Shown here in pieces: positions 9,288 through 57,841 of a DNA stretch of 64,000 bases. The stretch spans positions 1,054,001 to 1,118,000 of the forward strand of contig NZ_JAROCG010000001.1 in assembly GCF_030433645.1 (NCBI RefSeq), written 5' to 3'. The notes below the pieces were generated by a model. The model saw only the letters and a program-made list of their open reading frames with translations, had not been told where the DNA came from and ran no database searches. The translations under genes were made by a program, and so were the position numbers. This stretch comes from Arthrobacter burdickii (GTDB lineage: Bacteria > Actinomycetota > Actinomycetes > Actinomycetales > Micrococcaceae). Within the stretch, counting starts at the first letter, position 1, and every line of letters starts with the position of its first letter.

Positions 9288-10526
9288 TCAGCGGCGTGCT
9301 GCGAGGCCCGCCCTGAACGCGTCGGCCGAGGCGGAGGTGCTGTTGATCCGCCAGTCCGCTTCCTTGTTGATGTGGAACCAGACGAGGGCGACGACGTCCT
9401 GCTGCGCGGACACATAGCGGAACAGGCTGGTGATCCACTGGGGCTTCGATCCGCCGACCTCGGAGGAAGCCGTCTCCGCGATCATGATCGGTCTGCCGGG
9501 GGCGAGCTGCCGAAGCTGCGTGATGCCCTCCCCGAACAGCACCTCGGGTTCCTGCCACGCGCTCCACGACTGGGACGTGCCCCAGTTGTAGCCGTCCAGC
9601 GCCACGACGTCGACATAGTCGCCGCCCGGGTAGAGCTGATCCAGGGGCGTCGAGCCCCAGTAGGGCACGTTCGGGTTCCAGACCCAGCTGATGTTGGTCG
9701 CGCCCGTCGATGCGACAACGTCGTGCACGTGCCGGTAGGCGGCGATATAGTCGCCCGCGCCATTGCCGTTGACACCCTCGGCCCACGGATACCAGTTCCC
9801 GTTCATCTCGTGCGCGAACCGGAGGTAGACGGGTTGGCCCCACTGGCCGAGCGCCGTGCCCCACTCACGGAGGTAGGCGTCGAAGTCTCCCGCCGCGATG
9901 CGGTCAAGGGAGTAGGCGGGCTGCTCCGTGCCGCCGCCCCACGTCCAGGGTTCCCAGGTCAGGAGCGTCTCGGCGCCCCGGGCCCGCACGGCGTCGAGCT
10001 CGGCGAGTGGTGCCGCCTGGTTGAAGTCCTTGTAGGACAGCACGATCGAGGGAGCCTCCCCGGCGAGGGCAGCGACCTCGTCCAGCTCACCGCCGGCGGC
10101 AGCTCCGCCGTTCGTGCCCACACCGAACCGGATGCTCCGGGTGCCGGAGGGCACGGGAACAGGGTCGACGACGGTGAACGGGGCACTCGCGACGGCGCTG
10201 CCGGCCGTGGCCGTGACGGTCACGGTACCCGGCGCGGTGGGCATTCCGATCGACACCTGGAACGTGCCCGTGGACGTCGTCGTCACGGCCACCTTCGCGG
10301 TGCCCGCGACGACGGTGCCCTTGGTGCGCTTCGGGAACCCGGCGCCCGTGACGGTGACAGGGGAACCGGCTTCCCCGGACGTGCTGCTCAGGGTGATCGT
10401 CGCTGCGGCCTGCGCGGGTGGGGGCGTCAGTCCGAACGTGAGGACCGCCATCGCTGCGACGAGGAGAAGGAGGCGGTAGGCGGTTCCACGGGCGGAGCCG
10501 GCGGATACGCAGGAGATTGGAAGCAT
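9288..10526 (-). CDS. Secreted GH26-type beta-glycosidase (mannanase-like) with IPT/TIG domain
   Basis: A 412-aa secreted protein: a signal peptide (YRLLLLVAAMAVLTFGL, then PPPAQA), an Ig-like IPT/TIG domain (about residues 40-115, TLSSTSGEAGSPVTVTGAGFPK), then a catalytic TIM barrel. The acid/base segment RFAHEMNGNWYPWAEGVNG and the later nucleophile segment IMIAETASSEVGG are what GH26 enzymes show, and LLTWEPWTWGGG also fits. Likely substrates are mannan or another extracellular polysaccharide; this is inferred. The start is the ATG at 10526, with an AGGTG site. A c-di-GMP-I riboswitch lies 17 nt upstream, which ties the enzyme to biofilm/motility signalling. Confidence 0.85.
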   Translation of the reverse strand: MLPISCVSAGSARGTAYRLLLLVAAMAVLTFGLTPPPAQAAATITLSSTSGEAGSPVTVTGAGFPKRTKGTVVAGTAKVAVTTTSTGTFQVSIGMPTAPGTVTVTATAGSAVASAPFTVVDPVPVPSGTRSIRFGVGTNGGAAAGGELDEVAALAGEAPSIVLSYKDFNQAAPLAELDAVRARGAETLLTWEPWTWGGGTEQPAYSLDRIAAGDFDAYLREWGTALGQWGQPVYLRFAHEMNGNWYPWAEGVNGNGAGDYIAAYRHVHDVVASTGATNISWVWNPNVPYWGSTPLDQLYPGGDYVDVVALDGYNWGTSQSWSAWQEPEVLFGEGITQLRQLAPGRPIMIAETASSEVGGSKPQWITSLFRYVSAQQDVVALVWFHINKEADWRINSTSASADAFRAGLAARR

Positions 10527-10542
10527 GATCGGCACCTAGGAG

Positions 10543-10617
10543 TTCGGTAGCCCGGCTGACCGCAGGGGTCCCGTGGCTTTGCGTCTCCGGCTCGCGCCGG
10601 GTTTGCCTTTGTCGCTG
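10543..10617 (-). promoter_or_regulatory. c-di-GMP-I (GEMM) riboswitch aptamer
   Basis: On the minus strand the RNA contains, in order: GGCAAACC, a C/G stem capped by the GNRA tetraloop GCGA, GACGCAAAGCCACGGG, a short variable P2 region and AGCCGGGCTACCGA. These are the conserved blocks of the class I cyclic di-GMP riboswitch. The last block lies 17 nt before the start codon of the GH26 gene, so control of translation or of an attenuator at that site is plausible. There is no obvious U-run between aptamer and gene, which favours translational control. Confidence 0.88.
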
Positions 10618-10900
10618 GGCGGCTGCCCGAGCGGTGCGTCTCCCGCGCCGCGGGAGCCTCCTCCATTGTCCCGGGAAGCCGCCCGGGGAGGGTCTTCCGC
10701 ACCTGAAATATGCCGAAGGATTCGTGCAGGTCTTCCGCAGGCCGTCCCGGCACTGCGCCGACGGCACGCAGGACCCCTCGAATCCGTGCCGGGCGGCAGG
10801 ACAGGAAGGGGCGCCTTGCTGGGATTTTCGTGTGTCCTGCACCACAATGGGTCCTGCCGCGGTTTCGAGACTGCCGGGGCGAATCTGGTGAGGGGAACAG

Positions 10901-56862: not shown

Positions 56863-57061
56863 CGTACGCCTAACCCTGTCAGCGGACCGCCTGAACACAC
56901 TGTGACAGGGGTGGAGGACCCACGTTCCGGCGGCCTGAGCCGCCTCGGGGTGAAGCCCTTCCATGCTAGTTCGGCCCCGCCTGCGACATTTCCGCGGTGG
57001 AGGGCCGTGCAGAGGGGCCGAGTCAACTCTTGCTCGAATCCGACAGCTAACTTCGCGGGCG
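56863..57061 (+). promoter_or_regulatory. c-di-AMP (ydaO/yuaA) riboswitch
   Basis: The leader carries, in order, GCCTAACCCTGTCAGCGGA, GGGGTGGAGGACCCACG, CTCGGGGTGAAGCC and, near the end, CGAATCCGACAGCTAACTTC followed by GCGGGCG. These are the conserved blocks of the ydaO-type c-di-AMP riboswitch, which in actinobacteria often precedes cell-wall hydrolase genes. It ends about 20 nt before the M23 peptidase start. The adjacent 56.72-56.86 kb is AT-rich promoter DNA. Confidence 0.9.
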
Positions 57062-57082
57062 TTCCAGAGAGGTAAGCAGTTG

Positions 57083-57841
57083 ATGAATACCGTTCTGCCC
57101 GAGCGCCCTCGCGCCTCCGACGATCGCGCCCTCCAGTGGGTCTCGCAGCCGACGCGCCGCGACCTCCGGCAGGAAAGAGCCGGAGGTACGACGGCGTTCG
57201 CGAGACTGCGCGGAAACGCCGCTACGGCCGGCATCGTCCTCGCCTCGGCGGGACTGCTGCTGGGTGCCGTCGCACCCTCGGCAACGACGGCGGCCACCCC
57301 TGCAGCAGGCATGCAGGCCGTCACGGCTGCTGCGGAGGCGCCGGTGACCTTCACCCTCGAGGGGGCCGGTCGGGCCGTGGAGGGTGTCGCGCCGGGCATC
57401 GCGAGTGCCCGGGCACGCTCCGCGTCACTCACTCCTGCGCTCCAGGACCGCAAGGCCTTCGGGGCTCCGGTGGACCACCCGGTCCTGGCCTCCACCTTCG
57501 GGTATCGCGTCAACCCCGTGAGCGGGGCTGCCGACGAACTCCACGAGGGCCTGGACTACTCCGGTGCCTGCGGGACGCCGGTCAAGGCAGCGGATGCCGG
57601 CACAGTCGTCGACTCCGGCTGGCATGCCTACGGCGGGGGCCAGCGCATCGTGGTCGACCACGGCGACGGGCTGAAGACCACCTACAACCACCTGAGCGCC
57701 CTCGACGTGCAGGCCGGCACCAAGGTGAAGCGCGGGGACGTCCTCGGGGCGGTCGGCAGCACGGGGAACTCCACCGGCTGCCACCTCCACTTCGAGGTGA
57801 TGGTCGACGACAAGAAGGTCGACCCGAAGCCCTGGCTGTAG
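57083..57841 (+). CDS. M23-family cell-wall endopeptidase
   Basis: A 252-aa zinc peptidase. A hydrophobic segment at about residues 46-72 anchors or exports it. The catalytic domain has ASTFGYRVNPVSGAADELHEGLDYSGACGTPVKAADAGTV with His154 and Asp158, and the HxH motif at His234/His236 (TGCHLHFEVMVDD). It cleaves peptidoglycan cross-bridges. ATG at 57083 after AGAGAGG. A c-di-AMP riboswitch upstream links its expression to osmotic or wall stress. Confidence 0.92.
   Translation: MNTVLPERPRASDDRALQWVSQPTRRDLRQERAGGTTAFARLRGNAATAGIVLASAGLLLGAVAPSATTAATPAAGMQAVTAAAEAPVTFTLEGAGRAVEGVAPGIASARARSASLTPALQDRKAFGAPVDHPVLASTFGYRVNPVSGAADELHEGLDYSGACGTPVKAADAGTVVDSGWHAYGGGQRIVVDHGDGLKTTYNHLSALDVQAGTKVKRGDVLGAVGSTGNSTGCHLHFEVMVDDKKVDPKPWL

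Follow-up and report, generated by a model that had tools for sequence, protein, structure and literature searches.

Locus organization

In the window, i.e. the whole 64,000-nt stretch of Arthrobacter burdickii DNA analysed here, a gene for a predicted secreted GH26 glycoside hydrolase lies on the minus strand at 9288..10526 and is preceded on the same strand by an RNA element resembling the c-di-GMP-I aptamer (10542..10616, -). A Shine-Dalgarno sequence, AGGTG (10533..10537, -), stands 4 nt past the aptamer end and 6 nt ahead of the ATG, and a short hairpin (10617..10628, -), named P0 hereafter, abuts the aptamer on its 5′ side. An Rfam search of the whole window matched this element to c-di-GMP-I-GGC (RF03167) at 10542-10616(-) with 62.5 bits (cut-off 59, E 2.3e-12), and the genome search matched it to c-di-GMP-I (RF01051) at 10543-10617(-) with 61.3 bits (cut-off 35). 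The preliminary description had placed a GEMM aptamer on the minus strand here from its conserved blocks, and the RF01051 match agrees with its coordinates to the base. The blocks that it named are likewise present, namely GGCAAACC, a GCGA loop of the GNRA type, GACGCAAAGCCACGGG and AGCCGGGCTACCGA. Given the score, together with over-cut-off matches in most genomes of the genus (32 of 38), a chance match can be excluded. The sole other Rfam family over its cut-off in the window was the c-di-AMP (ydaO) riboswitch RF00379, at 56878-57076(+) with 54 bits, located 5′ of a frame ending at 57841 that looks by eye like an M23-type peptidase; a ydaO riboswitch before such a peptidase is a common arrangement.

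The GH26 frame comprises 415 residues, 412 when counted from the ATG, and begins with a signal peptide recognized by eye. It matches the GH26 family of Pfam (PF02156; 42.7 bits, cut-off 20.2), which bears out the description of the downstream gene as a secreted GH26-type glycosidase. The nearest solved structures are endoglucanase H chains (2bv9, E 1.4e-51), an enzyme that we take to be the lichenase of Clostridium thermocellum, while the next GH26 chain is no closer than E 3.8e-10, and the best match named as a mannanase has an E-value of 7e-10. Both glutamate motifs, HE..NG and IAE, align with 2bv9, and these glutamates are presumably catalytic. By similarity, the predicted enzyme is lichenase-like, nearer to the lichenase type than to mannanases.

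The aptamer ends at 10542 and the ATG occupies 10526-10524, so that the two are 15 nt apart; the adjacency of aptamer and start codon noted earlier thus holds, but not the spacing of 17 nt given for it. A longer frame, beginning with a GTG at 10535, was rejected because in an alignment, A1, made up of the window and 51 relatives, all 52 sequences share the aligned ATG. A1 omits L180 (34.2 bits), L185, L186 and L187, and relies on the second of the two ATGs of L151. Across A1 the distance from aptamer to ATG is 11-19 nt in all 52 sequences, with AGG or a close variant at the Shine-Dalgarno position.

Conserved structure of the aptamer and the P0 hairpin

By sequence, the window RNA folds as a three-way junction. 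A GNRA tetraloop on P2 is a feature of c-di-GMP-I aptamers, and the P2 loop, GCGA in the window, is GNRA in 52/52 sequences of A1. Pairs 1-80 and 16-31 of the RF03167 model are non-standard in the window aptamer. In the P1 helix two pairs are well kept and a third is found in 30/52 sequences, giving a P1 of 2-3 bp, whose probability without ligand is about zero in most of 51 folded sequences. When the whole structure is considered, including P0, 11 pairs are changed on both sides, compared to 4.3 in shuffles.

P0 (GGGC-AGCC-GCCC) lies outside both Rfam models. In fixed columns, 87.5% of its cells are paired, compared to 77.4% in shuffles that keep the relatedness of the sequences, and 18 cells carry double-sided changes, compared to 4.1; none of 500 shuffles reached either the paired fraction or the count of double-changed cells. 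All four pairs show a double-sided change, a result equalled by 48 of the 500 shuffles. Versions of the hairpin slid along the alignment were only 39-53% paired. Furthermore, a test allowing a flexible stem found the hairpin in 45/55 loci, compared to a mean of 12.9 and a maximum of 21 in 200 shuffles, and in 9-13 of the 55 loci at four other offsets; by the same test, ten loci lack P0. Pairing of this upstream block with the 3′ strand of P3, suggested by eye in some sequences, fails in others, and the block forms its own hairpin instead. A second hairpin further upstream, also a candidate by eye, was dropped, the mean z being -0.46 for the glycosidase and other classes (34 loci) and -0.36 for the regulators (22 loci), with z < -2 in three loci of each set.

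Binding pocket and predicted ligand

The three pocket bases, G20, A47 and C92 in what we take to be the numbering of the Vibrio aptamer, are canonical in the window. In A1, G20 and C92 are found in 52/52 sequences and A47 in 51/52, L150 alone having a G. The window RNA scores best with the c-di-GMP-I-GGC model, whose class was reportedly named by Weinberg in 2017, but the RF03167 consensus has a G at the position equated with A47, where the window has an A. With its canonical pocket bases, the window RNA is ill described by the 'GGC' label, and the ligand to be expected is c-di-GMP. Judged by its predicted pocket, it belongs with the ordinary c-di-GMP-I aptamers, although the GGC model happens to give it the highest score.

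The slightly higher score of RF03167 (62.5 bits) over RF01051 (61.3 bits) could be read as a sign that the RNA senses something other than c-di-GMP, either a ligand of the 'GGC' variant or 3′,3′-cGAMP; the term c-di-GMP-I-GGC does occur in the literature, in two papers as an entry among model names. We consider such a change of ligand very improbable. Against a GGC-variant ligand speaks the A at position 47 in the window and in 51/52 sequences, as opposed to the G of the RF03167 consensus. A 3′,3′-cGAMP riboswitch (GEMM-Ib) would have an A at position 20, the change from G20 to A being the mark of cGAMP switches, and is made unlikely by the G retained in 52/52 sequences.

The genome encodes three GGDEF domains, with the motifs GGEEF, GGEEF and GGDEF, one of them joined to an EAL domain; two more EAL matches are partial and below the cut-off. 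A Pfam search of the genome limited to the PilZ family found no PilZ domain. In Actinomycetota, c-di-GMP has mostly been discussed via protein receptors such as BldD.

GH26 genes with and without the aptamer

Of 24 close GH26 homologues in 23 genomes of the genus, 19 are immediately preceded by an RF03167 match, which is over the cut-off in 15 cases and at 58.6, 49.3, 46.7 and 34.2 bits in the other four. The remaining five comprise one degenerate copy found by the local model only (L037/L255, 46.3 bits), one gene split by N in its assembly and three genes with none. Five further, weaker GH26 matches in the genus have no RF03167 match adjoining. Both the degenerate copy and a weak one (L180/L258; 34.2 bits with RF03167, 76.1 bits with the local model) lie upstream of open GH26 frames. 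A set of 80 named GH26 homologues on genome contigs gave 16 strong upstream matches (at least 92 bits) and one degenerate one, leaving 63 with no upstream aptamer match; among these 63, the upstream region falls in an assembly gap at L044 and is only 6 nt long at L106. Absence of the aptamer from the GH26 genes of relatives had been named beforehand as grounds for dropping the proposal. This applies to most genes outside the group, whereas the close homologues within the genus mostly carry it.

In a GH26 tree of 80 rows including the window (L052, with a frame of only 13 codons from the match start, was dropped), the aptamer-bearing genes fall in three separate places. The window group of 14 has 12 with the aptamer, one with the degenerate copy and one with an assembly gap, a second group has it in 4/5, and the third place is a lone row. 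The aptamer-GH26 arrangement would thus be either old, with many losses, or of repeated origin. One record inside the Arthrobacter clade, L042 (WNZI01000001.1), is titled Vibrio cholerae strain 35D and contains an Arthrobacter-type GH26 gene with aptamer; it is probably mislabelled.

The degenerate and weak copies in two members of the genus, and the three genus GH26 genes without aptamer, might raise the question of whether the element in the window is itself a decaying relic. This is hardly credible for the window copy, which retains the pocket bases and exceeds both cut-offs, and the 75 nt of which are identical in the closest relative (G003).

Expression platform and direction of control

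The gap of 15 nt between aptamer and ATG is too small for an intrinsic terminator, and control of the GH26 gene is therefore most likely translational, judging from the layout of the sequence; a Rho-dependent effect downstream of translational control is possible. By comparison, about a dozen aptamers from other taxonomic classes of the phylum show by eye an inverted repeat and a T run 3′ of the aptamer. Altogether, it is quite probable that the window RNA is a class I c-di-GMP riboswitch and that it controls how translation of the secreted lichenase-like GH26 enzyme is initiated. The inference first drawn from the sequence, that c-di-GMP tunes secretion of this enzyme and so links matrix turnover to the second messenger, is supported in part, namely as to the aptamer with its canonical pocket, its place by the ribosome-binding site, the GGDEF and EAL domains of the genome and the matches beside close GH26 homologues. 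Under such a mechanism, c-di-GMP made by the GGDEF proteins would bind at G20, A47 and C92 and close the short P1 helix beside the ribosome-binding site, and the closed P1 would alter access of the 30S subunit and hence initiation.

As to the direction of this control, a comparison of free and aptamer-forced ensembles for 51 of the 52 A1 sequences (L145, which contains N, was excluded) showed no consistent influence of the aptamer fold on Shine-Dalgarno accessibility. Mean accessibility over the 51 sequences was 0.36 in the free and 0.40 in the forced ensemble, and the values for the window were 0.32 and 0.27, respectively. With no consistent direction across these folds, a conserved anti-Shine-Dalgarno or alternative helix was rejected as the expression platform; nor does the consensus fold contain an alternative helix, its last 30 columns being without any pair. 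We lean, weakly and from geometry alone, to a switch that is OFF at high c-di-GMP, since with ligand bound a rigid junction would be held fast beside the ribosome-binding site; production of the enzyme would then follow a drop in c-di-GMP.

The same riboswitch could also act as an ON switch, a reading to which we give appreciable weight without preferring it. In that case, the 5′ half of the ligand-free aptamer would sequester the ribosome-binding site together with the start codon by pairing, and both would be released by c-di-GMP, so that GH26 would be made at high c-di-GMP, in the way that EPS-editing hydrolases are made together with the synthase. The minimum-energy free fold of the window (-53.1 kcal/mol, versus -44.0 kcal/mol with the aptamer forced) does pair the Shine-Dalgarno region and AUG with the 5′ strand of P2 and the GGCA core, and a BcsA-like synthase gene lies beside a GH26-OpgC fusion gene elsewhere in the genome. 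However, the pairing seen in the window is not kept where the same design recurs at other loci, and the folds of the 51 sequences, as above, favour neither direction.

A second copy, leader ORFs and a proposed genus regulon

The genome carries two copies of the aptamer. The second is located 5′ of a 45-codon ORF that overlaps the gene for an OmpR-type response regulator, and the genes within 4 kb include those of a histidine kinase, a phosphodiester glycosidase, and proteins with DUF4956 and VTC domains. In the genus as a whole, the 32 genomes with RF03167 matches contain 49 copies, 42 of them over the cut-off. The genes downstream of the 49 copies encode GH26 enzymes (20), response regulators (22), GH16-like proteins (6) and a GH5 enzyme (1); one of the 20 GH26 copies, L145, was assigned from the start of the gene alone, an assembly gap cutting the rest.

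The GH5 assignment is clear (188 bits). The GH16-like class, whose members were grouped by homologue listing and by eye, is weak by profile: matches to the structure of the 1,3-1,4-beta-glucanase 3i4i have E-values of 0.0011 (L141) and 0.25 (L137), L141 matches an NCBIfam beta-glucanase model at E 0.0027, far under the cut-off of that model, and the N-terminal part of these proteins matches no Pfam family. Among the 120 homologues listed for this class, at least three have a GH16 name in a source record, most of the named ones being 'hypothetical protein'.

Twenty of the 22 regulator loci have a leader ORF, 33-54 codons long, that starts at the aptamer-adjacent ATG, and in 20/20 of these unfused loci its stop overlaps the regulator ATG, by 4 nt in five cases and by 8 nt in 15. 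At the other two loci the leader is fused in frame and runs from the aptamer-adjacent ATG into the regulator. The GH26 copy in the window has no leader ORF. This overlap of leader stop and regulator start points to control at translation initiation, and since the leader sequences vary, it is the relay rather than a leader peptide that seems to be kept. The same relay design is seen outside the genus in L213 and L214 (family f9), where a c-di-GMP-I aptamer precedes a leader ORF of 20-21 codons overlapping a 128-codon frame by 4 nt.

The cassette of P0 hairpin, aptamer and Shine-Dalgarno sequence also precedes the GH16-like and GH5 genes and, with the overlapping leader ORF in between, the response regulator gene. 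We tentatively propose that a translational c-di-GMP-I cassette, in which P0 and aptamer abut the Shine-Dalgarno sequence, defines a small regulon in the Arthrobacter agilis group that would serve to turn over beta-glucan, acting on GH26, GH16-like and GH5 directly and on the response regulator through a relay from leader stop to regulator start.

Whose beta-glucan the window enzyme would cleave bears on this proposal. Another contig of the same genome (G000) has, at C2:332313-336973, equivalent to L264:3314-7974(-), a cellulose-synthase-like GT2 gene followed by an adjacent GH26-OpgC fusion gene; the GT2 matches BcsA chains at E 2.6e-69 and is below the cut-off of the CelA model, and the GH26 part of the fusion is 23% identical to the window enzyme. 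On account of this gene pair, a beta-glucan of the strain's own is possible. It is also conceivable, and a reading that we hold open without favouring it, that the switch works as described but that the enzyme digests external beta-glucan of plants or lichens, c-di-GMP then telling of life on a surface or plant instead of governing the turnover of the bacterium's own matrix. The closeness of the enzyme to endoglucanase H and the presence of GH16-like and GH5 proteins under the same switch in relatives would fit external substrates, against which the GT2 gene beside the GH26-OpgC fusion leaves room for a glucan made by the strain.

Distribution and relation to known systems

The preliminary description had noted that class I c-di-GMP riboswitches are mostly described in Firmicutes and Proteobacteria; the aptamer is, however, not unusual for the phylum: RF01051 is over its cut-off in 152 of 396 sampled genomes of the phylum, and c-di-GMP-I in 34 of 347 sampled genomes of the order. 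In a sample of the family, 25/295 genomes have a match, 19 of them in the same genus; two of the six matches outside the genus (L188 and L189, 27-28 bits) were judged spurious. Of 55 loci from other families, at least seven (L217, L222, L223, L224, L229, L230 and L231), at which the aptamer was misplaced or missed, were left unused. In family f8, which belongs to the same order, c-di-GMP-I aptamers lie 15-20 nt ahead of small genes at L196, L200, L203, L206 and L211; the products at L196 and L206 match the NCBIfam BldC-family model (100.6 and 103.5 bits), those at L200, L203 and L211 look alike by eye, and no paper combining BldC, c-di-GMP and a riboswitch came up in a literature search. At L182 (G113), an aptamer lies 18 nt before a frame that is cut by the end of the stretch and resembles by eye an Flp-type pilin; the 36 residues seen have no NCBIfam match.

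The window RNA resembles other c-di-GMP-I (GEMM-I) RNAs of RF01051 in its score, three-way junction, GNRA loop, pocket bases, location on the coding strand and secreted enzyme downstream. It differs from them in the P1 of 2-3 bp, the position of the aptamer directly against the Shine-Dalgarno sequence and the extra P0, and the gene set is different as well, i.e. GH26, GH16-like and response regulator. Control of polysaccharide degradation by GEMM RNAs is already known, one publication describing a GEMM regulon with 21 polysaccharide-degradation genes (PMC3766115), and c-di-GMP-I aptamers are common in the phylum; what the present locus adds is its putative regulon, together with P0 and the leader relay. 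A search by title and start of abstract among open-licence papers found no literature on a c-di-GMP riboswitch before GH26 or in Arthrobacter.

For the relay, a parallel is offered by the B12 riboswitch of Mycobacterium tuberculosis ppe2, for which a translated uORF whose stop overlaps the next start (AUGA) is reported and termination-reinitiation demonstrated (PMC11260477). Both systems have a riboswitch, here a predicted one, before a leader whose stop overlaps the next start; however, ligand and gene are different, and here the overlap is seen in the sequence, at the response-regulator copies only. A link of c-di-GMP to beta-glucan is described for Rhizobium etli and Sinorhizobium, which make a c-di-GMP-activated, lichenase-sensitive mixed-linkage beta-glucan, and in which c-di-GMP is considered to work by binding the synthase BgsA (PMC9495663). 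The likeness is that c-di-GMP is tied to a lichenase-sensitive beta-glucan; but there the target would be the synthase, whereas here an RNA would act on the hydrolase, and a glucan of this kind is hypothetical in Arthrobacter.

Biological implications

The window thus offers a predicted RNA receptor with a clear downstream gene set, testable in a soil-type bacterium without a PilZ match in Pfam. The regulator loci, with their overlapping leaders and in-frame fused leaders, form a natural series on a riboswitch relay through a leader ORF, and the weak and degenerate copies before GH26 genes provide natural comparisons. If the proposed regulon is real, it would include a relay from a c-di-GMP riboswitch to a uORF, and in Actinomycetota it would connect c-di-GMP with matrix enzymes by way of a riboswitch. 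The occurrence of the same switch before other such enzymes and a regulator in close relatives suggests that c-di-GMP may tune polysaccharide turnover in these bacteria.
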